Part shown: positions 49,978 to 59,104 of the stretch, piece by piece
Numbering within the stretch: the first letter of the stretch is position 1
How the letters are laid out: every line of letters begins with the position of its first letter
Origin: Qipengyuania vesicularis
Lineage (GTDB): Bacteria > Pseudomonadota > Alphaproteobacteria > Sphingomonadales > Sphingomonadaceae
Reading direction: 5' to 3'
Assembly (NCBI RefSeq): GCF_019711415.1
Contig: NZ_JAIGNJ010000001.1
Coordinates: 427,001-491,000 of the forward strand
Length of the DNA: 64,000 bases
Position numbers and translations under genes: made by a program
The notes under the pieces: model-generated
What the model was told of the DNA's origin: nothing
Databases searched by the model: none
What the model saw: only the letters and a program-made list of their open reading frames with translations

Positions 49978-50492
49978 GCGAGGCCGATGCGTCGCTGATT
50001 CTGGCGGCCGAACTGCCGCCGGAGATGCATCGCCGCTACACCGACCTACGCACGCAATTTTTCCCGCCCGAGCGCAATTATCTCGAAGCGCATGTCACGC
50101 TGTTTCACGCCATCCCAGCGCAATGCGAAGACGAGTTGCGTCGGTACCTCGCGCGGCTGACTGGCGAGGTCCCGCCGATCCGTGGACAGGTCGAAGGGCT
50201 GATGTCTCTAGGAGGAGGCACTGCCATCAAGCTGTCGAGCCCGGATCTGCTCGCCCTGCGCGACGAAATCGCCGAGCATCTTCGCGGGATGCTGACCCAG
50301 CAGGACCAGCACCGCCCGCGGCTCCATGTGACGATCCAGAACAAGGTGACATCGAAGGACGCGAAGGCGCTGCAGGCGCAGCTGGCGGGCACGATCGAGC
50401 CCCGCGAATTCGCCTTTTCGGGCCTCGCGCTGTACATCTATCGCGGCGGCCCGTGGGAATTCGTACGGCGCTTCGCATTTCGCGGGAAATGA
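49974..50492 (+). CDS. 2'-5' RNA ligase family (2H phosphoesterase) protein
   Basis: 172 residues from GTG 49974 in a GTGA overlap with mltG. Two H-x-T motifs, AHVTLFHAIP and LHVTIQNKV, define the 2H phosphoesterase superfamily (LigT/ThpR-like). Such enzymes open 2',3'-cyclic phosphates or join 2'-5' bonds in RNA. The exact substrate is unknown, and coupling to mltG appears to be for expression only. Confidence 0.88.
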   Translation: MSEADASLILAAELPPEMHRRYTDLRTQFFPPERNYLEAHVTLFHAIPAQCEDELRRYLARLTGEVPPIRGQVEGLMSLGGGTAIKLSSPDLLALRDEIAEHLRGMLTQQDQHRPRLHVTIQNKVTSKDAKALQAQLAGTIEPREFAFSGLALYIYRGGPWEFVRRFAFRGK

Positions 50493-50495
50493 GTG

Positions 50496-50524
50496 TTGAC
50501 CACCGGGGCCACGCGCCCTAAATG
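50496..50524 (+). promoter_or_regulatory. Predicted tRNA-Met promoter
   Basis: TTGACC (50496-50501), 17-nt spacer, TAAATG (50519-50524), 44 nt before the tRNA. It begins just after the stop of the preceding gene. Confidence 0.55.
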
Positions 50525-50537
50525 CGCCGCCTGCCGA

Positions 50538-50553
50538 GCGGGCATATGCCCGC
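50538..50553. repeat. Perfect 16-bp palindrome in the tRNA-Met leader
   Basis: GCGGGCATATGCCCGC is fully self-complementary and lies between the -10 and the mature tRNA, so the precursor 5' leader may fold or the DNA may be a protein-binding site. Confidence 0.5.
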
Positions 50554-50568
50554 CGCACGGCCTTTCGG

Positions 50569-50645
50569 GGCGGAGTAGCTCAGGTGGTTAGAGCAGCGGA
50601 ATCATAATCCGCGTGTCGGGGGTTCGAGTCCCTCCTCCGCTACCA
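50569..50645 (+). tRNA. tRNA-Met (anticodon CAT), probably elongator
   Basis: Cloverleaf with acceptor GGCGGAG/CTCCGCT (G-U at the end), D-arm GCTCAGGTGGTTAGAGC, anticodon stem GCGGA/TCCGC with CAT at 50603-50605, T-arm with GGTTCGAGTCC, CCA encoded. It lacks the three G-C pairs of initiator tRNA. tRNA-Ile2 (lysidine) also reads as CAT but the acceptor differs from typical Ile2. Confidence 0.9.
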
Positions 50646-51154
50646 ATTTTACCCGATCGTTGATTTGTCCGGGCCGACTTGCGGCCACCAGTGATCGTGG
50701 GCTGCCGCAGCCCGAGGTCCCCGGCCCTCTTGCGCCAGCGCTCACCTTCGACCGTATTGGCACGCCTTGTCGGATTAACCTCGGCTGTCGTCGGCATCTG
50801 CCGCTCCGTTCGGCTCTCACCAATCCGCAAAATCCGTCAGGCCTGAGGGCGCATGGATGCGCTGCGAAGTTGCGCATTCCCGGCGCATTTGGCCACCATC
50901 TTGCGGATATCGCGGATTGCTGGCACAATATGAACATGAGCAGGCGATTTTTCTGTCCTGATTGCGGCCTCGTTGCCGTACGCCGATCGGTGGAGTTTCA
51001 TCTCACCGACTGGTTCAACGAGTAATCCCGAACCGCGCGGGATAGGCGCGGATTTCGGGCACGCTCCTGATCGTGCCTTCCGACATTCCGGGCCCATCCC
51101 CGACCATTCGCATGCGGCCATTGCGCTGCCCATGAAGGTTCGAGGGATCACACC
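50646..51154. other. 509-nt gap between tRNA-Met and the TonB receptor gene
   Basis: No convincing gene. A 31-codon frame at 50930-51025 (MNMSRRFFCPDCGLVAVRR...) has a CPDC pair but no ribosome-binding site. ATCCCG/CGGGAT with 7-nt spacer (about 51025-51044) is a small dyad upstream of the receptor gene and could be an operator. No duplicate of the tRNA 3' end was seen, so there is no sign of an integrated element. Confidence 0.5.
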
Positions 51155-53965
51155 ATGTCAATGCAATCGAATATCCGTTGCGGGGCTGCCGGCACCGCTG
51201 CCCTGCTGCTCGCAGGAATTTCCACACCCGTCCTTGCGCAAGCCGTCGCCGGGACCGAAGAGGCCACTCAGACCGACGACGAGGTAATCGTCGTCACCGG
51301 TAGCCGCATCGAAGGACTGCCATCCGATGGCCCGGTCCAGACCATCTCCATCGGCCGCGACGATATCGTCGAATCGGGTGCAGGCACTATCATCGAGGTT
51401 CTCCAGGACCTTCCAGTGGCCACCGGAGGCGGCGCGACATTCTCGACCGCAACCGCCGGACCGCTCTCGTCCGATACGCCGGTCGGCGCGTCTGCTGTCT
51501 CGCTCCGCGGACTGGGCGCGTCCTCGACGTTGACCCTGATCAACGGCCGCCGCGCACAGATCAGTGCCTTCGCGCGCGGTCAGGAAAGTTTCATCGACGC
51601 CAGCTCCATTCCCCTGGCAGCGGTAGAACGGGTCGAAGTCCTGCCCTCCGGTGCTTCGGCGATCTATGGGGCTGACGCGGTGGCCGGCGTGGTCAATTAC
51701 GTCCTGCGCGATGATTTCGAGGGTATCGAGCTCACTGCAAGCTACGGCAACTCCACGGCAGGAACAGACGAGGGGCGCTACAACATTACCGGGGTCGTCG
51801 GTACGCGTCTTGGTGATCGCAATTCGGTCATGCTGGTGGTCGACTACTTCAAGCGCAATCCCTTCTTCCTGCGCGACCGGGCCATAAGCCGCGACAGCTT
51901 CCGTCCCAGCCAGCAGGGTTTCTATCCCAGCTATAACGACCTGTTTTTCCAGTTCTTCGACCAGACCGAAGAGCCTGCCGACGGTGGCTGCGCCGCCGAC
52001 GATTTCGGTTTCGGCAATTTCGGCGAGTTCTGCGAGGTCAACACCAACGCCTTTATTTCGGCGCAGGATCGGCTGGAGACCATTGGCGGCCTGTTCACTC
52101 ACCAGTTCGAGATCTCGGACAGGCTGACGTGGTACAATGATGTGCTCTATAGCCGGGTGGAATCGCGCGGCATCAGCTCGCCCGCAAACTTCTCGCGTGC
52201 GCCCATCGATCCGGAAAATCCGTTCTGGCCCGCAGCCTTGCAGGCAGACATTGTCGAAGAAGGCGGGGTCACCGATTTCAGCGACTACTTCGGCTTCCCG
52301 ATCTTCGCCTGGGGCAAGATCCCAGAGCCGCGCGCAGTAGAAATCGAATCCGACAGCTATCGGATTACGTCAGGCTTGCGCGGCGATCTGGCAGGTGACT
52401 GGCGATTCGACGCCGCTTTCCTGTTCGGCGGCAATGACCGCATCCAGAGAGGCTTGTCCGGGCTGGTCGTCGCGCAGAATTTCTACGATCTCAATCTCGG
52501 CAACATCTGTACCGACGGGACGAGGGTGGAACGCTGGGATGTCGATCCGGGGCGCCCGACCGCGGATTTCGTGGGTGACACCTGTGAAGACATCGGCCTG
52601 ACCACGCTCTGGTACAATCCTTTCGGAGGCCAGACTACCCAGGAAGCAGGAGTGGCGGAACTGCTCGGCACCGAGGCGGAACGCAGCGGCAAGTCGCGGC
52701 TCTACGCCTTCGATGCGAGCGTCAACGGCACGCTGCTCGAGATGCCTGCCGGTCCGTTGAAGGCAGCATTTGGGGGCGAGTTCCGCCGCGAAACGCTGCG
52801 GGACACCCCGTCTGGGATTGCAGTCGCGACAATTGACAATCCGGAGCCCATCCTCGGCTTCTCTTCCACCAGCGCCGAGGCGGATCGCAACAGCTGGTCG
52901 CTCTACGGTGAATTCTACGTACCACTCGCAGCTGGGCTAGACCTGCAGCTTGCCGGGCGGTTCGACGATTTCGAAGGCTTTGGGAGCGACTTCAATCCGA
53001 AGATCGCCGCGCGCTGGGAACCAGTCGACTGGCTTGCCCTGCGCGCCAATTATTCGACCTCATTCCGCGCTCCTTCGCTCGCCCAGAGCGGTGCGGGTGT
53101 GCTGCTGAGCTCGTATCGTGTCGATTGCGAAGCGACGCCAGGCGCGTGCGACGATGATCCCACTGCCGATGGCGAGGCACTGTTGTCCGAAGATGTCGGC
53201 AATCCGAACCTCGGTGCCGAGAACGCTCGGAGCTTCGGCGGCGGCATTGTCGTCATGCCCAATTCGGATATCGAGCTGCGTGTCGACTACTGGAATATCC
53301 GGCACGAGGACCTGGTCGGCATCGACGAGGACGACTTCATTCGCCGTGCCTTGGCGGGAGAATTCGCTGTTGTCGGGGATGGGGAACTGGCCACCGGTAC
53401 GCCCGGCCTCGAAGTCACCAACGGTTTTGTGACCGACGCCCATTTCCAGATCACCAATCTCGGATTCCAGAAAACCGACGGCATCGACTTTGCCTATACC
53501 CACCGGTTTGGTGGCGGAGATGCGGGCGATTTCACCTTCTTGCTGGACGCTACCCACATCCTCAACTTCGAGCGCAAGGCCTCGGAAGCCAGCCCGCTGG
53601 AGCAGTTGGCGGGCGACTATCTTTATCCCGACTTCATCGCGAGCGGGAAGTTGCGCTGGCGCAAGGATGAATGGCGAGCCGCGCTATCCGGCCACTACAA
53701 GAGCGGGTATCGCGACGATCCGTCGGACCGCACGCTCGAGGCGCTCGGACTGCCACTGGATAGCGAATACGAGGTCGACGATTACCTGACCTTCGATCTC
53801 AGCGTGAGCTACGACTTCGCCGAGGACAGCTTCATCCAGCTATCGCTGCGCAACATCCTCGATGCGGACCCGCCACGGGTGCTTGGATCCTCCTCGAATG
53901 TCGATCTCTTCAACCATGACCTGATCGGGCGCTACGCTACGATCCGCGTGACGAAGCGCTTCTAA
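51155..53965 (+). CDS. TonB-dependent outer membrane receptor
   Basis: 936 residues. Signal peptide to about residue 29 (TPVLAQA), TonB box-like DEVIVVTGSRI (43-51), plug domain with LRGLGASSTLTLINGRR and VERVEVLPSGASAIYGADAVAGVVNYVLR, then a 22-strand barrel ending ATIRVTKRF. It imports ligands too large for porins, driven by TonB. It is first in a four-gene set with a YfcC-type transporter, cyanophycinase and isoaspartyl peptidase, so a beta-aspartyl peptide or cyanophycin fragment is the inferred ligand. A gap of 79 nt separates it from the transporter. Confidence 0.95.
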   Translation: MSMQSNIRCGAAGTAALLLAGISTPVLAQAVAGTEEATQTDDEVIVVTGSRIEGLPSDGPVQTISIGRDDIVESGAGTIIEVLQDLPVATGGGATFSTATAGPLSSDTPVGASAVSLRGLGASSTLTLINGRRAQISAFARGQESFIDASSIPLAAVERVEVLPSGASAIYGADAVAGVVNYVLRDDFEGIELTASYGNSTAGTDEGRYNITGVVGTRLGDRNSVMLVVDYFKRNPFFLRDRAISRDSFRPSQQGFYPSYNDLFFQFFDQTEEPADGGCAADDFGFGNFGEFCEVNTNAFISAQDRLETIGGLFTHQFEISDRLTWYNDVLYSRVESRGISSPANFSRAPIDPENPFWPAALQADIVEEGGVTDFSDYFGFPIFAWGKIPEPRAVEIESDSYRITSGLRGDLAGDWRFDAAFLFGGNDRIQRGLSGLVVAQNFYDLNLGNICTDGTRVERWDVDPGRPTADFVGDTCEDIGLTTLWYNPFGGQTTQEAGVAELLGTEAERSGKSRLYAFDASVNGTLLEMPAGPLKAAFGGEFRRETLRDTPSGIAVATIDNPEPILGFSSTSAEADRNSWSLYGEFYVPLAAGLDLQLAGRFDDFEGFGSDFNPKIAARWEPVDWLALRANYSTSFRAPSLAQSGAGVLLSSYRVDCEATPGACDDDPTADGEALLSEDVGNPNLGAENARSFGGGIVVMPNSDIELRVDYWNIRHEDLVGIDEDDFIRRALAGEFAVVGDGELATGTPGLEVTNGFVTDAHFQITNLGFQKTDGIDFAYTHRFGGGDAGDFTFLLDATHILNFERKASEASPLEQLAGDYLYPDFIASGKLRWRKDEWRAALSGHYKSGYRDDPSDRTLEALGLPLDSEYEVDDYLTFDLSVSYDFAEDSFIQLSLRNILDADPPRVLGSSSNVDLFNHDLIGRYATIRVTKRF

Positions 53966-54044
53966 CGCGACAAGGTCAGAAATCCGCCGTGTCGGGGCCT
54001 GCCATTGGGTGGCAGGTCCCGGGCGGCGACGACGGGAGAAGGCG

Positions 54045-55517
54045 ATGGCCGATCGAGAATCCGACAAGGCGGAGGGTGCTGCCGACGCATCGACGCGGGT
54101 CTGGCGGATGCCGGACACGCTGCTCATCATGTTCGTGCTGGCGGTGCTGGCCTGGGCCGCGACATTCGTCTTCATACCTGGCCAGTTCGACGTGGCAGGC
54201 GATCCGGCGCGGATCGTACCGGGCAGCTTCCAGGCGGCCTCCGGGACAATGCCTGCGCCCGTGCTGGGCGATGAAGACCGCGCGGGTTTCCTCGACTTTT
54301 TCTATGCCGGGCTCGTAACCGGTGATCGTTATTCGCCCACCGTGGGCCTGATGGCCTTCATCATCGTGCTGGGCGGGGTGTTCGGCATGATCATGCGCAC
54401 CCGTGCAATCGACGCTGCGCTTCAGGCCTCGCTACCTGGCGGCAAAGCGCAGGGAGAGACGCTGATACTGCTGCTGTTCGTGTCTTTCTCCCTCGGCGGC
54501 GCTGTTTTCGGCCTGTCCGAAGAAGCGATTGCCCTGACGCTGATCCTGGCGCCATCGCTGAGCCGCGCGGGCTATGACTCCATTACAGCATTGCTCGTCT
54601 GCCTGTGCGCGAGCCAGATCGGTTTCGCGACGAGCTGGATGAACCCTTTCAGCGTCGTGATTGCGCAGAGCATATCTGGTCTCCCCCCCATGTCCGGCAT
54701 GGGTCCACGAGTGGCGATCTGGGCCAGCTTCACGGTGCTCGGCGCCCTGTTTACCTGGCACTACGCACGCCGGGTCCGCCTCGGGATCCGTCCGGCAGTT
54801 GGGAAGATCGCCGACACGTCCGACAAGGGCGCAATCGACAAGTTTCGCCTCGCCCACCTGTCGGTATTGGCCACTCTTCTGGCGGGTGTCGCCTGGGTGG
54901 CGTGGGGCGTGACGACGCGTGGCTACTATTTGCCGGAAATCGCGGCACAATTCTTCGCAGTGGGCATGGTTACGGCGGTCATCGCTTATTTGGGCAAGCT
55001 CGAGGGTGGATCGACCGGCGAGATGATGGAGGCATTTCGCGAGGGAGCGGCACAATTGCTGCCGGCCGCACTTATCGTCGGTGCCGCGAAGGGGATCATG
55101 CTCCTGCTGGGAGGCGATTCCCCGACAAGCGTTTCGCTGCTCAATGCGTTGCTGAACGGCCTTGCAAACCTGACGGCGGCAGTGCCCGACTGGATGACGG
55201 CCTGGGCCATGTATCTGGCCCAGAGCATTTTCAACTTCGCGGTGTCCTCCGGCTCGGGCCAGGCGAGCATCACCATGCCGATTATGGCCCCGCTTGCCGA
55301 TCTTTCGGGCGTGACACGTCAGACCGCGGTGCTCGCCTTCCAACTGGGCGACGGCTTCACCAATTTGGTGGTGCCGACTTCCGCCACGCTGATGGGCTGC
55401 CTCGCTGCAGCACGCGTTTCTTACGGCCAATGGCTGGCGTTCTTCTGGAAACCCATGGTGGCGCTGTTCGTCTTAGCCAGCGCGGTCATGTTGATCGCCC
55501 ACGCAGGAGGGTTCTGA
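54045..55517 (+). CDS. YfcC family (ArcD/DcuC-like) inner membrane transporter
   Basis: 490 residues from ATG 54045 (GGGAGAAGG upstream). About 12 transmembrane segments; SEEAIALTLILAPSLSRAGYDSITALLV and IFNFAVSSGSGQASITMPIMAPLADLSGVTRQTAVLAFQLGDGFTNL are typical of YfcC/C4-dicarboxylate-like carriers, several of which move basic amino acids or peptides. Its stop overlaps the cyanophycinase start by 1 nt. It probably brings Arg, Asp or beta-Asp-Arg dipeptides into the cytosol; the substrate is inferred from neighbours. Confidence 0.87.
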   Translation: MADRESDKAEGAADASTRVWRMPDTLLIMFVLAVLAWAATFVFIPGQFDVAGDPARIVPGSFQAASGTMPAPVLGDEDRAGFLDFFYAGLVTGDRYSPTVGLMAFIIVLGGVFGMIMRTRAIDAALQASLPGGKAQGETLILLLFVSFSLGGAVFGLSEEAIALTLILAPSLSRAGYDSITALLVCLCASQIGFATSWMNPFSVVIAQSISGLPPMSGMGPRVAIWASFTVLGALFTWHYARRVRLGIRPAVGKIADTSDKGAIDKFRLAHLSVLATLLAGVAWVAWGVTTRGYYLPEIAAQFFAVGMVTAVIAYLGKLEGGSTGEMMEAFREGAAQLLPAALIVGAAKGIMLLLGGDSPTSVSLLNALLNGLANLTAAVPDWMTAWAMYLAQSIFNFAVSSGSGQASITMPIMAPLADLSGVTRQTAVLAFQLGDGFTNLVVPTSATLMGCLAAARVSYGQWLAFFWKPMVALFVLASAVMLIAHAGGF

Positions 55518-56752
55518 TGGCCTGGAAACTCCTGACGGCCTTCCTAGCCCTCGCGATGGGAGCCTGCACAACGCCCAGCCTTCTGGCTCAACCGGGCACT
55601 CTGGTGATCGTCGGCGGCGGGCTCGAGGCCGACAATGAGGAAGTCTTCCGGGCCTTCCTCGAAGCACGGCTAACGGAAGCTACCTCCATCGCAATTGTCC
55701 CCGCGGCGTCGGGCGCGCCGAGCCAATCTGCTGCGGACTTCCGTGATGCGCTTGTCAGGCACGGTGCCGATCCTGCCGACATCAGGATTGTCGAGCTTGC
55801 GGTAAAGGACGATCCGGCGACGGCCGATATTGACGAGGCCGGCTGGTCGGCGAACGCCGACAATCCATCGGAAATCGAGAAAATCGCGCAGGCAGGAGCG
55901 ATCTGGTTAACCGGAGGCGACCAGTCGCGACTGACCGAGTTGCTGATCGGCGAAGGTGGCCGCGACACGGCGATGCTGGCTGCCATTCGCGCGCGCTTGG
56001 AAGCAGGCGCGGTGGTAGGCGGGACCTCGGCGGGCGCCGCAATCATGAGCGATCCGATGATCACGCAGGGCGATACGCTGGCAGCACTACTGCCAAATGC
56101 TCCCGGAGAGGAGGTTCGCTTCGACCGGGGACTGGGGTTCTTTCAAAGGGCACTGGTCGATCAGCACTTCGGGGAGCGGGCAAGGCTCGGCAGGCTCGCC
56201 GCGCTCCTCGTCAGCAAGGACCAACCGCATCGGATCGGGATCGGGATCGACGAGAATACCGCAATCCAGTTCACAGTCGGAGAAACACATGTCCTCGTTC
56301 TGGGGTCAGGATATGTGACCTTCCTGGATGCGCGCTCGGCCAAGATCGGGGACGGGTCGCGGTTTGCAGTCCGGAACCTGGCGCTGAGCCTCGCCTCGAG
56401 CGGGGACCGGATCGCGCTGGGAGATGGCCAGGTCGAACCCGCGCCTAACAAGCAAGCGACCGTCGGCAATGAATATTTCGACGCTGAGACCATCTCCGGA
56501 GGCGGCATGGCGCTTGGCGGCAGCACGCTTGCCGAGGTGGCCGGCGAGGCCCTCCTCGACAATTCGGCTGCCCGCAGCGTCGAACGCCACAGTTTCAGCG
56601 GCACCTTCGGAGTAACTTATCGCTTGGTGCAAACCGACGATTCCCGGGGCTGGTGGGGGCGCTCTCCGGCCGGGAACGCAAGCTATGCCCTGTCGGGCAT
56701 CCGCTTCGACATCGAACCTATCGATATAACCATAATGAAAGCAGAAAACTGA
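55517..56752 (+). CDS. Cyanophycinase family (peptidase S51) probable lipoprotein
   Basis: 411 residues; ATG in a TGATG overlap, with CAGGAGGG upstream. An N-terminal hydrophobic stretch ends LALAMGAC, a slightly irregular lipobox (Cys17). Family residues in order: TGGDQ (132-136), nucleophile Ser171 in GGTSAGAA, DQHFGERARLGRL (His217) and GIDENTA (244-250). Length fits the secreted CphE type rather than cytosolic CphB (about 270-300), with a C-terminal extension of about 130 residues. Cyanophycinases cut cyanophycin into beta-Asp-Arg dipeptides. Alternative: a related enzyme for other isoaspartyl peptides. Confidence 0.86.
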   Translation: MAWKLLTAFLALAMGACTTPSLLAQPGTLVIVGGGLEADNEEVFRAFLEARLTEATSIAIVPAASGAPSQSAADFRDALVRHGADPADIRIVELAVKDDPATADIDEAGWSANADNPSEIEKIAQAGAIWLTGGDQSRLTELLIGEGGRDTAMLAAIRARLEAGAVVGGTSAGAAIMSDPMITQGDTLAALLPNAPGEEVRFDRGLGFFQRALVDQHFGERARLGRLAALLVSKDQPHRIGIGIDENTAIQFTVGETHVLVLGSGYVTFLDARSAKIGDGSRFAVRNLALSLASSGDRIALGDGQVEPAPNKQATVGNEYFDAETISGGGMALGGSTLAEVAGEALLDNSAARSVERHSFSGTFGVTYRLVQTDDSRGWWGRSPAGNASYALSGIRFDIEPIDITIMKAEN

Positions 56753-57636
56753 TGTCGCATGACCATGTCATAGCCTTGCACGGCGGTGCTGGAGTGAACC
56801 CGGAACGCGACTACGCGAAGGTTGAGACGCATCTAAGCGAGCTGGTCGACCGATGCGAGCAGATGCTGGCTGGCGGCGAAACGGCTCTCGACACGGTCGA
56901 ATTTGCCGTGGCCGAGATGGAAGACAGCGGGCTCTACGTTGCCGGGCGAGGATCCGCCCCGAACGACCAGGGCGTGGTGGAATGCGATGCCGCGATCATG
57001 GACGGCGCGCGCCTGAGGGCTGGCGGCATCTGCGCCGCCGTCGATGTTGCGCAACCTATCCGGGCTGCACGCGAAGTTCTCGAGAATACTCCCTACGTCC
57101 TACTGGCTGGTGACGGAGCGAACGCATTCGCTCGCGAGCGGGGTCTGGAGATGGTGTCGGACCCGGTCTCCCATTTCGTATTGCCTGTCGGAGTTGAGGC
57201 GGAGGAACTGCTGAAGCTCGATGACGGCCTCGCGCATGGGACGGTCGGTGCCGTCGCCCTAGATCGCAACGGCCAGCTCGCGTCGGCGACCTCGACCGGC
57301 GGCTTGCTGGGAAAGCGGGCTGGCAGGGTGGGCGACACGCCTATTACGGGGATTGGAAACTGGGCCGATGAGGAGGTCGCGGTCAGCTGCACCGGGATTG
57401 GCGAGGCGTTCATCTACGCCGGGGGCGCGCGCGATCTCGCGTCTCGCATGGCATATGCCGGGCAAAGCCTGGAGGATGCCGGCGCCTCTTTGCTCGCGGA
57501 AGTCGCGCGGCACCGCGGCGATGGCGGTCTGATCGCAGTCCACCGGACTGGCGAGGTTATCATGCCTTTTAATTCGGCCGGCATGAAACGGGCGGTCGCA
57601 GGTTCTCGGATCACCCGGGCGGTAGCGATTTTATAG
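56752..57636 (+). CDS. Isoaspartyl peptidase/L-asparaginase (Ntn hydrolase)
   Basis: 294 residues; ATG in a TGATG overlap with the cyanophycinase gene. HGGAG near the start, GRGSAPNDQGVVECDAAIMDG, and the autocleavage site HGTVGAVALD with Thr164 as new N-terminal nucleophile define the plant-type asparaginase/IaaA family. CTGIGEAFI is also conserved. It splits beta-aspartyl dipeptides to Asp plus the second amino acid in the cytosol, the natural last step after cyanophycinase. No signal peptide. Confidence 0.92.
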   Translation: MSHDHVIALHGGAGVNPERDYAKVETHLSELVDRCEQMLAGGETALDTVEFAVAEMEDSGLYVAGRGSAPNDQGVVECDAAIMDGARLRAGGICAAVDVAQPIRAAREVLENTPYVLLAGDGANAFARERGLEMVSDPVSHFVLPVGVEAEELLKLDDGLAHGTVGAVALDRNGQLASATSTGGLLGKRAGRVGDTPITGIGNWADEEVAVSCTGIGEAFIYAGGARDLASRMAYAGQSLEDAGASLLAEVARHRGDGGLIAVHRTGEVIMPFNSAGMKRAVAGSRITRAVAIL

Positions 57637-57715
57637 CGCAAACTGTCCGGGCGATTGGTCGCAAGAGAGGCTTCGCAAGCCTTGCAGTCCCGCCCCATTC
57701 CCTCCTGACCGAGCG

Positions 57716-59104
57716 TCAGAAGGAGTACTTCGTCGAGACCTGGACCTTTTGCAGGTTCCCGCTCTGGCCGTCCTCTGTCGTGCGTTCGGCATACATGTAT
57801 TCGATGCCGATATCGATCGGTCGGGCAGGGGAGTAGATGATGTTCGCCAGCACGTTCCAGCTTTCATCGGTGGCTGCGCCCGAGGTCAGCAGGACGGGAT
57901 TATCCGCCTTGAAGTAGGAAGCGCCGATATTGGAGCGGAGCTTGTCGGACCACGAATGGCGCAAGGCACCGAATCCGGAATAGGTGAAGATCGGGTCGAG
58001 GTTGCCCTCGGCATCGACCGCCGCATCGTTGACGATGTTCAGGCCGATGTAGCGTCCGAGCCCGTCACCGACGGTCCCCATGAACCGGAAGTCATCGCGC
58101 TCGCCGAGTTTGAGCTTGCCCGAGACGCTGAGGCCGTAGCCGAACGCGCTGTCCGAACCCGTGCCGAAGTCATCATCGGATATGCGCAGCGTCCTGAAGA
58201 TGCCTGCAGTCGAAAGCGAACCCCAGTCGCCGGTGAAGTTGTATCGCGCGACGATATCCGGGATCGTGTCGTCGCCTGCCAGCACGCGCGATCCATCGCT
58301 GGCGGTCACGGTCGTTTCGGGTTGTTCGACTGCAAGCATCAGCCCGCCATCGGTGTAGCGGATCATCGGCTGGCGTTCGAACACGGTCCCCGGCGTCGTG
58401 CCGATGAAATCGAGGCTTTCGGGCAGTGCACCCACGTTCTGGAAGGTCGACCAGGCTTGGCCGAACAGCCACTTGTCATAGGTGATGAATGCTTGCCGCA
58501 GGCGCGGTTGGTAGCTGTTCGAGATGCGTTCGTCGCCTCCCGGCGTGACCATGAAATCGAGCTCGATTTGCGAATTGAGCGAATGTTCGGCGCCGACATC
58601 GGTCGCAGTCTTGAAAATGAAGCGCGTCTGGCGCGCGTTGAAATCGGTGTCCCAGCCGGATGACTCGCCGCCCACCGGGATGGCGCCGGGAATGAGGAAA
58701 TCGCGCACGATGCTGCCCGTACCGACCTGTCCCGCGCTCGTGCGCTGGGCGATCGCATCGAGCTTCACATAGCCAGCATAGGATACGAGCGTGCTGCCAA
58801 CGCGGAAGCCCTTGTCTTCCTGCTTCTTGGGTTCGTCGATCTGGGCGGCGAGTTCTTCCTGCCTTTCCTGGAGCGCGCGTGTTTCGGCTAGCGCTTGCTG
58901 CGTCTGTGCGACGGTTTCGGCCTGTTGGGCATCCATCTGGCCTTCCTGCGCATCGAGCCGCTCGACCAGCTGCATGACCAGCGCCTCGAGCCGATCCAGC
59001 CGCGCTTCGACGTCGTCGTCCTGCGCCGCGGCAGGAGCTGCCGCAAGGCATGTCCCCGCAAGTAGACCCGCACGGATCACGTTCCTCAAAGCGCTGCCTG
59101 CCAT
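57716..59104 (-). CDS. DcaP-like trimeric outer membrane porin
   Basis: 462 residues from ATG 59104 (GGAGGAAGGA upstream). Signal peptide to about residue 27 (APAAAQ), a coiled coil of about 55 residues (VEARLDRLEALVMQLVERL, then Gln/Glu-rich helices), then a barrel beginning STLVSYAGYVKLDAIAQ and ending VSTKYSF with terminal Phe. This is the DcaP plan, known for uptake of small organic acids. It is divergent from acs with a palindrome between, so it may bring in acetate or related acids under the same regulator. Confidence 0.88.
   Translation of the reverse strand: MAGSALRNVIRAGLLAGTCLAAAPAAAQDDDVEARLDRLEALVMQLVERLDAQEGQMDAQQAETVAQTQQALAETRALQERQEELAAQIDEPKKQEDKGFRVGSTLVSYAGYVKLDAIAQRTSAGQVGTGSIVRDFLIPGAIPVGGESSGWDTDFNARQTRFIFKTATDVGAEHSLNSQIELDFMVTPGGDERISNSYQPRLRQAFITYDKWLFGQAWSTFQNVGALPESLDFIGTTPGTVFERQPMIRYTDGGLMLAVEQPETTVTASDGSRVLAGDDTIPDIVARYNFTGDWGSLSTAGIFRTLRISDDDFGTGSDSAFGYGLSVSGKLKLGERDDFRFMGTVGDGLGRYIGLNIVNDAAVDAEGNLDPIFTYSGFGALRHSWSDKLRSNIGASYFKADNPVLLTSGAATDESWNVLANIIYSPARPIDIGIEYMYAERTTEDGQSGNLQKVQVSTKYSF

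Follow-up and report, generated by a model that had tools for sequence, protein, structure and literature searches.

A probable cyanophycin-scavenging operon with a conserved upstream candidate leader ORF in Qipengyuania vesicularis and its relatives

In the window analyzed here, i.e., the whole stretch of 64,000 nucleotides (nt) from Qipengyuania vesicularis, four genes for a TonB-dependent receptor, a YfcC-type carrier, an exported S51 cyanophycinase and an isoaspartyl peptidase, preceded by a small open reading frame (ORF), appear to form an operon for the scavenging of cyanophycin, the nitrogen store of cyanobacteria; judged from the sequence, we put the probability of this assignment at about 0.7. 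The locus is best read as serving to scavenge cyanophycin from outside the cell. In the route that we infer, the TonB receptor would carry oligomers or fragments of cyanophycin through the outer membrane, the S51 enzyme, probably lipid-anchored in Q. vesicularis, would cut them to beta-Asp-Arg, the carrier would move this dipeptide across the inner membrane and a cytoplasmic isoaspartyl peptidase would split it into Asp and Arg. Transcription would start at the first base of the 29-codon small ORF, whose translation would control the operon. To our knowledge, little is known about the uptake of cyanophycin by other bacteria, and the operon offers a concrete and testable route for it, from receptor through exported cyanophycinase and carrier to peptidase.

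The four genes were present where a preliminary description of this DNA had placed them, and both of the 1-nt TGATG overlaps by which it joined the last three genes were located in the sequence (55515-55519 between the carrier and S51 genes, 56750-56754 between the S51 and peptidase genes). The carrier gene starts with an ATG preceded by GGGAGAAGG. Pfam and NCBIfam were concordant on the family assignments of the operon genes (Table 1). The S51 protein passed the cyanophycinase equivalog cut-off and scored 21 bits against the PepE dipeptidase model, the cut-off of which is 156. In the alignment to Synechocystis CphB (3en0), its residues Q136, D215, Q216, R221, R223 and R226 correspond to Gln101, Asp172, Gln173, Arg178, Arg180 and Arg183, the residues given as critical for CphB in the consulted part of PMC3235067, and its catalytic S171 corresponds to S132, with H217 and E246 completing the catalytic set. 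Each of these residues, Q136, S171, D215, Q216, H217, R221, R223, R226 and E246, is found in all nine operon homologues. An AlphaFold model of the protein (6 rows; mean predicted local distance difference test score 75) has a beta-rich C-terminal part besides the S51 region, and its prediction is poor over residues 316-352. The identification of the S51 protein as a cyanophycinase is supported by its sequence, and the earlier assignment to the long CphE type with all catalytic motifs agrees with the TIGR02069 score and with the intact CphB pocket residues. The protein resembles the extracellular CphE of Pseudomonas (PMC3235067) in its long form, export signal, Ser/His/Glu set and pocket Gln, Asp and Arg residues, whereas CphEal has a Thr where the window protein keeps Gln; unlike CphE, the window S51 gene is overlapped by the genes of a carrier and a peptidase.

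Table 1. Features of the operon region in the window and of two loci used for comparison (window positions unless a locus is named)
Feature	Position	Strand	Remarks
Promoter-like element	50901-50929	+	TTGCG at -35 to -31, TG at -15/-14, CACAAT at -12 to -7 (A of small ORF ATG = +1)
Small ORF, 29 codons, candidate leader peptide, apparently leaderless start	50936-51025	+	Counterparts in 9/9 operons
GC-rich hairpin	51026-51065	+	Directly after small ORF stop
TonB-dependent receptor, 936 amino acids (aa)	51155-53965	+	PF00593 and PF07715 (plug and barrel domains)
YfcC/DcuC-family carrier, 490 aa	54045-55517	+	NF008611, 548 bits (cut-off 500); PF03606
Exported S51 cyanophycinase, long CphE type (predicted), 411 aa	55517-56752	+	TIGR02069, 186.7 bits (cut-off 126.6)
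Isoaspartyl peptidase, plant-type asparaginase family, no signal sequence, 294 aa	56752-57636	+	PF01112, 251.8 bits (cut-off 27)
S51-peptidase fusion	L056:6864-8801	-	Both domains confirmed in L056; TonB receptor gene on opposite strand
Unrelated TonB receptor	L046:4400-6736	-	Behind peptidase gene in G049

A first genome scan yielded five loci, in Qipengyuania sphaerica, Aurantiacibacter odishensis, a Croceicoccus metagenome-assembled genome (MAG) and two Henriciella MAGs. Of the 296 genomes searched in the order, 48 gave a match to the cyanophycinase model, 35 of them over the cut-off; the further comparison set aside eight S51 matches that were weak (E 9e-7 to 1e-3) and, in G119, a second match (E 4e-12). 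The regions of 19 longer or lower-scoring S51 matches were fetched, and the four window proteins were compared over 24 loci (the window and 23 others, with G263 left out as an apparent repeat of the Q. sphaerica genome), with the starts of the relatives' genes chosen by script. The order receptor-carrier-S51-peptidase, on the same strand, was found in eight of the 24 loci (window, L039, L040, L041, L047, L042, L043 and L045), that is in seven genomes besides the window's, including two Henriciella MAGs, so that the gene order recurs elsewhere in Sphingomonadales and in Henriciella. A ninth operon, L046 in genome G049, consists of carrier, S51 and peptidase, and the remaining 15 loci have an S51 gene without the carrier. 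Identities to the window proteins range over 56-92% for the receptor, 48-85% for the carrier, 43-76% for the S51 protein and 54-83% for the peptidase. Receptor orthologues (E 1e-100 or better) occur in four of the 296 genomes, in all four inside the operon (Fisher p about 1.6e-8, kinship ignored). Since the order is kept in eight loci and the receptor orthologues stand only inside the operon, this is a conserved operon and its conservation goes beyond chance.

The distribution of the operon is patchy: in the window's own genus, three of the 23 sampled genomes have it. The 23 short CphB-type loci of the 296-genome sample, viewed up to 1.5 kb on each side, had a peptidase match in three cases, a TonB receptor in three and the carrier in none. 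In a class-wide sample, too sparse for linkage tests, the receptor was found in 1 of 385 genomes (the window's own) and an S51 match at E 1e-20 in nine. Seventeen plasmid records had S51 matches, none over 42% identity. Longer S51 genes also lie in other neighborhoods, some of them shared (L051-L054), and in the S51 protein of L054 the Ser, His and Glu of the catalytic set are gone.

The preliminary description had noted that the window holds no cyanophycin synthetase, and this extends to the genome: no cphA1 over the cut-off was found in the whole window genome (best match 82.6 bits, cut-off 850), in ten relatives (four with the operon) or in the genomes of L040-L043. Altogether, cphA1 over the cut-off was found in 0/9 operon genomes, at least three of which are MAGs and perhaps incomplete, and the best match in any tested genome was about 100 bits. 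Sharon and Schmeing 2023 (PMC10206079) reported that, of 32 genomes without cphA1, 94% have the cyanophycinase gene in a cluster with iaaA. The window likewise has the cyanophycinase and isoaspartyl peptidase genes clustered, with a transporter present and no cphA1 over the cut-off.

The part of the locus that is most novel, and that was missing from the preliminary description, is the small ORF. It was first met as a tblastn match upstream of the receptor in four relatives, with the window's flanking genes as query; when the upstream regions were read, a short ORF with the same C-terminus was found before all nine operons. It has 29 codons from the ATG in the window, L039, L040, L041 and L047, and other lengths or unclear starts in L042, L043, L045 and L046. 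The conserved part comprises the last residues up to the stop, with an N-terminal part that varies in sequence and length; the C-terminal ends read RRSVEFHLTDWFNE in the window, RSSADYQLSEWFDE in L042 and GREYDYRLSEWFDE in L045, and the fuller forms of the motif follow R-x-S-x-[ED]-[FY]-x-L-[ST]-[DE]-W-F-[ND]-E-stop. In the last 18 codons of the five close sequences, the differences summed over the ten pairs are 12, 10 and 63 at codon positions 1, 2 and 3, the variable columns being 3, 2 and 10, and the ratio of nonsynonymous to synonymous substitution rates is at most 0.23. This shows selection at the protein level in the five close relatives. The skew of the differences toward the third position is the pattern of a translated peptide, and the small ORF is likely translated.

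The small ORF is also tied to the operon. A strict DNA pattern for its C-terminus matched one place in the window genome, and the looser pattern L-x-[DE]-W-F-[DN]-E-stop matched one place each in five of the 296 genomes, precisely those in which the carrier-S51-peptidase operon lies (Fisher p about 5e-11, kinship ignored), while a reversed-pattern control gave one match in the 296 genomes. Among 105 genomes of the family of L042, the pattern was found in three, namely the two known operons and G783, which ends in TGG instead of a stop, and in 18 of 116 loci examined, each an operon locus or a repeat of one. This 24-base motif can serve as a marker for such operons, with no false match in the 296 genomes and one in the 105 genomes of another family. 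In G049, the small ORF precedes the carrier although the usual receptor is missing, which ties the ORF to the operon rather than to this receptor.

Upstream of the small ORF, TTGCG is the longest invariant run in the 100 nt before the ATG of the five genomes with the 29-codon form; TG (-15/-14), CA (-12/-11), T (-7) and four scattered bases are also invariant in a stretch that is otherwise variable. A -35 box, an extended -10 and a -10 box stand at such positions relative to +1, and as the spacing of the element from the ATG matches them, the mRNA would begin at the ATG. Directly after the stop codon, a hairpin is found in the five close relatives, where just 0.3-4.5% of GC-matched 40-mers from the same locus fold as well, and it is kept in L047 despite a differing sequence; the corresponding values are 9.8% in L045, 44% in L046, 47% in L043 and 84% in L042. 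The whole leader RNA of the window is not unusually stable (z -1.3).

On these grounds, we read the small ORF as a leader peptide that would control the operon. In its conserved C-terminal part running up to the stop and its place ahead of an operon, it resembles the leader peptide TnaC. SpeFL and the fungal arginine attenuator peptide are likewise leader peptides with a short upstream ORF and a conserved C-terminus. Compared with all three, no sequence relation was shown and the start of the small ORF appears leaderless. Tentatively, the ORF may encode a nascent-chain sensor on a leaderless mRNA, the conserved C-terminal motif of which would make the ribosome pause at the stop codon when arginine, ornithine or beta-Asp-Arg is sensed and so switch the operon without a protein regulator. 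If the ORF does sense the product, it would join the small number of leader peptides known to sense metabolites, and the leader ORF is the part of the locus that specialists would want to test. Among the matches listed in the literature searches, none was noticed that dealt with such a leader. As the peptides of L042 and L043 contain a single Arg each, attenuation by counting Arg codons is a less likely mechanism than one acting through the nascent chain, and a search for known RNA elements in 50400-51300 found only a tRNA over the Rfam threshold; the small ORF and leader reach no Rfam, Pfam or NCBIfam threshold. It is possible, if doubtful, that the ORF is not a cis-acting leader but encodes an independent small protein, perhaps one that partners or regulates the proteins of the operon. 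The selection at the protein level would suit such a protein, as would the CPDC of the window ORF and its match, below the threshold, to a zinc-binding family (E 0.008; 16.4 bits, cut-off 33.2). Against it, conservation does not extend to the cysteines, which are absent from L042, L043, L045 and L047, and the conserved part reaches the stop codon, with an N-terminal part that differs in sequence and length.

Read by eye, a hydrophobic N-terminus, i.e., an export signal, is present in all nine operon S51 proteins, and the lipobox reported earlier is there in the window protein, at Cys17. The preliminary description placed the digestion at the cell surface, with a surface lipoprotein cutting the polymer outside and the receptor importing the dipeptide. 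We regard this as rather unlikely: a clear lipobox was seen in four of the nine homologues (window, L039, L040 and L042) but not in L041, L043, L045, L046 and L047, L043 having a Cys at a doubtful place, and a dipeptide of about 290 Da should, by textbook knowledge, pass porins without a TonB receptor. A periplasmic enzyme acting on fragments brought in by the receptor fits equally or better.

The peptidase, in turn, is probably cytoplasmic, a hydrophobic N-terminal stretch being absent, by eye, from all nine operon peptidases. Its Thr nucleophile, already named in the preliminary description, is Thr164 within GTVGAV, a motif starting at residue 163; this Thr aligns with residue 1 of solved beta subunits. 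The best solved match of the peptidase is the beta-aspartyl-peptidase 9hnc; the PF01112 score agrees with this assignment. Because the peptidase would act in the cytoplasm, an inner-membrane carrier would be required, and the YfcC carrier is present. A second architecture was also found. In L056-L059 and L061, the S51 and peptidase parts are fused in one exported polypeptide of 643-646 aa, with a receptor gene adjacent on the opposite strand, and no YfcC gene was found within about 8 kb on either side of the fusion genes. The absence of the carrier from loci with an exported fusion fits the carrier being needed when the peptidase is inside. L060 has S51 alone; the S51 parts of L056-L062 are below the cyanophycinase cut-off (93.6 bits in L056), and in L056-L061 Thr replaces Gln173 (CphB numbering), as in CphEal.

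The operon could also scavenge beta-aspartyl (isoaspartyl) peptides generally, from damaged protein in detritus, with cyanophycin as one possible source. Isoaspartyl peptidases of cyanophycin clusters are described in the consulted part of PMC10206079 as promiscuous, accepting many isoaspartyl dipeptides, and the window peptidase, with 203.2 bits, is far from the 567-bit cut-off of the E. coli-type beta-aspartyl-peptidase equivalog NF007589. The S51 protein, however, keeps the residues critical for cyanophycinase activity and passes the cyanophycinase and not the PepE cut-off, and we find this general role improbable.

As for the receptor, a branch with a support of 100 (SH-like approximate likelihood ratio test) separates the eight operon receptors from all others in a quick tree with the genome's other receptors, for which 34 of 36 rows were used, seven of them under half filled, and in which the receptors of L056-L061 make a separate group. 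A clade of their own is thus supported for the operon receptors; the preliminary description had named clustering with siderophore or sugar receptors as evidence against its interpretation, and no such placement was seen in this tree, which is without characterized receptors. Solved receptors match weakly, BtuB best (E 2e-15, residues 40-234). That the receptor serves another nutrient and heads the operon by accident is very improbable: the window genome has many TonB receptors (23 matches) and G049 lacks this receptor, but in the 296 genomes the receptor occurs only with the operon, and in G049 a 778-aa receptor of another kind, a replacement missing from the preliminary description, lies directly behind the peptidase gene, so that a receptor seems to be wanted. 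A TonB receptor gene also stands directly before a long S51 gene in L118 (G563) and L119 (G468), from another family of the class, with no carrier or peptidase nearby.

Besides the low equivalog score of the peptidase and the promiscuity of such enzymes, several points weigh against a cyanophycin-scavenging operon under leader control. The substrates of TonB receptors are not readable from sequence, the best solved matches, to BtuB, cover only the N-terminal part of the receptor, and one operon, that of G049, does without the usual receptor. The substrate class of the carrier is predicted by a model, NF008611, that is itself named "putative", and a search by sequence for a solved relative found none. 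The third-position skew is weaker in the four distant small ORFs (1/1/4 in the closest pair, about 6/5/9 in most others), and the promoter-like element is not evident upstream of L042, L043, L045 and L046. A consensus promoter scan gave no site in 50480-57900, and the hairpin is not unusual in three of the nine operons and marginal in one.

The preliminary interpretation is good in outline and the operon is real: the cyanophycinase identity, the conserved operon, the lack of a synthetase over the cut-off, the separate receptor clade and the peptidase without signal sequence all stood, whereas the surface-digestion step is weak and the claim of novelty for the uptake too strong. Citromicrobium is related to the window bacterium. 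For Citromicrobium sp. JLT1363, Tang et al. 2012 (PMC3400609) proposed cyanophycin as the substrate of a TonB receptor beside a cyanophycinase, so the TonB part of the uptake, held earlier to be undescribed together with the YfcC carrier, has a precedent; as in the window, the receptor adjoins the cyanophycinase gene, and the consulted part of that paper names no YfcC carrier, peptidase or small ORF, yet the locus may be the same operon. Cyanophycin utilization loci (Ben Hania et al. as cited in PMC10206079; Sharon and Schmeing 2023) likewise combine cyanophycinase, isoaspartyl dipeptidase and transporter genes in genomes without cphA1; in comparison with their description in the part consulted, the window operon has a plant-type asparaginase-family peptidase, a YfcC carrier, a dedicated TonB receptor and a leader ORF, and belongs to Alphaproteobacteria. 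The general idea of such loci and of TonB uptake is already known, and the operon is not wholly new in this respect. The four-gene anatomy across Sphingomonadales and Henriciella with the leader ORF was not noticed among the literature matches listed, which is no proof of its being undescribed.

For an insertion of the operon as a cassette at the tRNA-Met gene (50569-50645), no empty site was demonstrable in 12 congener regions with a DcaP-acs gene pair; these stretches had neither the operon nor the window's left-hand genes nor tRNA-Met. In the window, this pair lies on the other side of the operon, where a gene for a DcaP-type outer membrane porin (PF19577; 57716-59299), convergent with the operon, adjoins acs, and the DcaP-acs pair is kept in the 12 other congeners, whose fetched stretches are without the operon.

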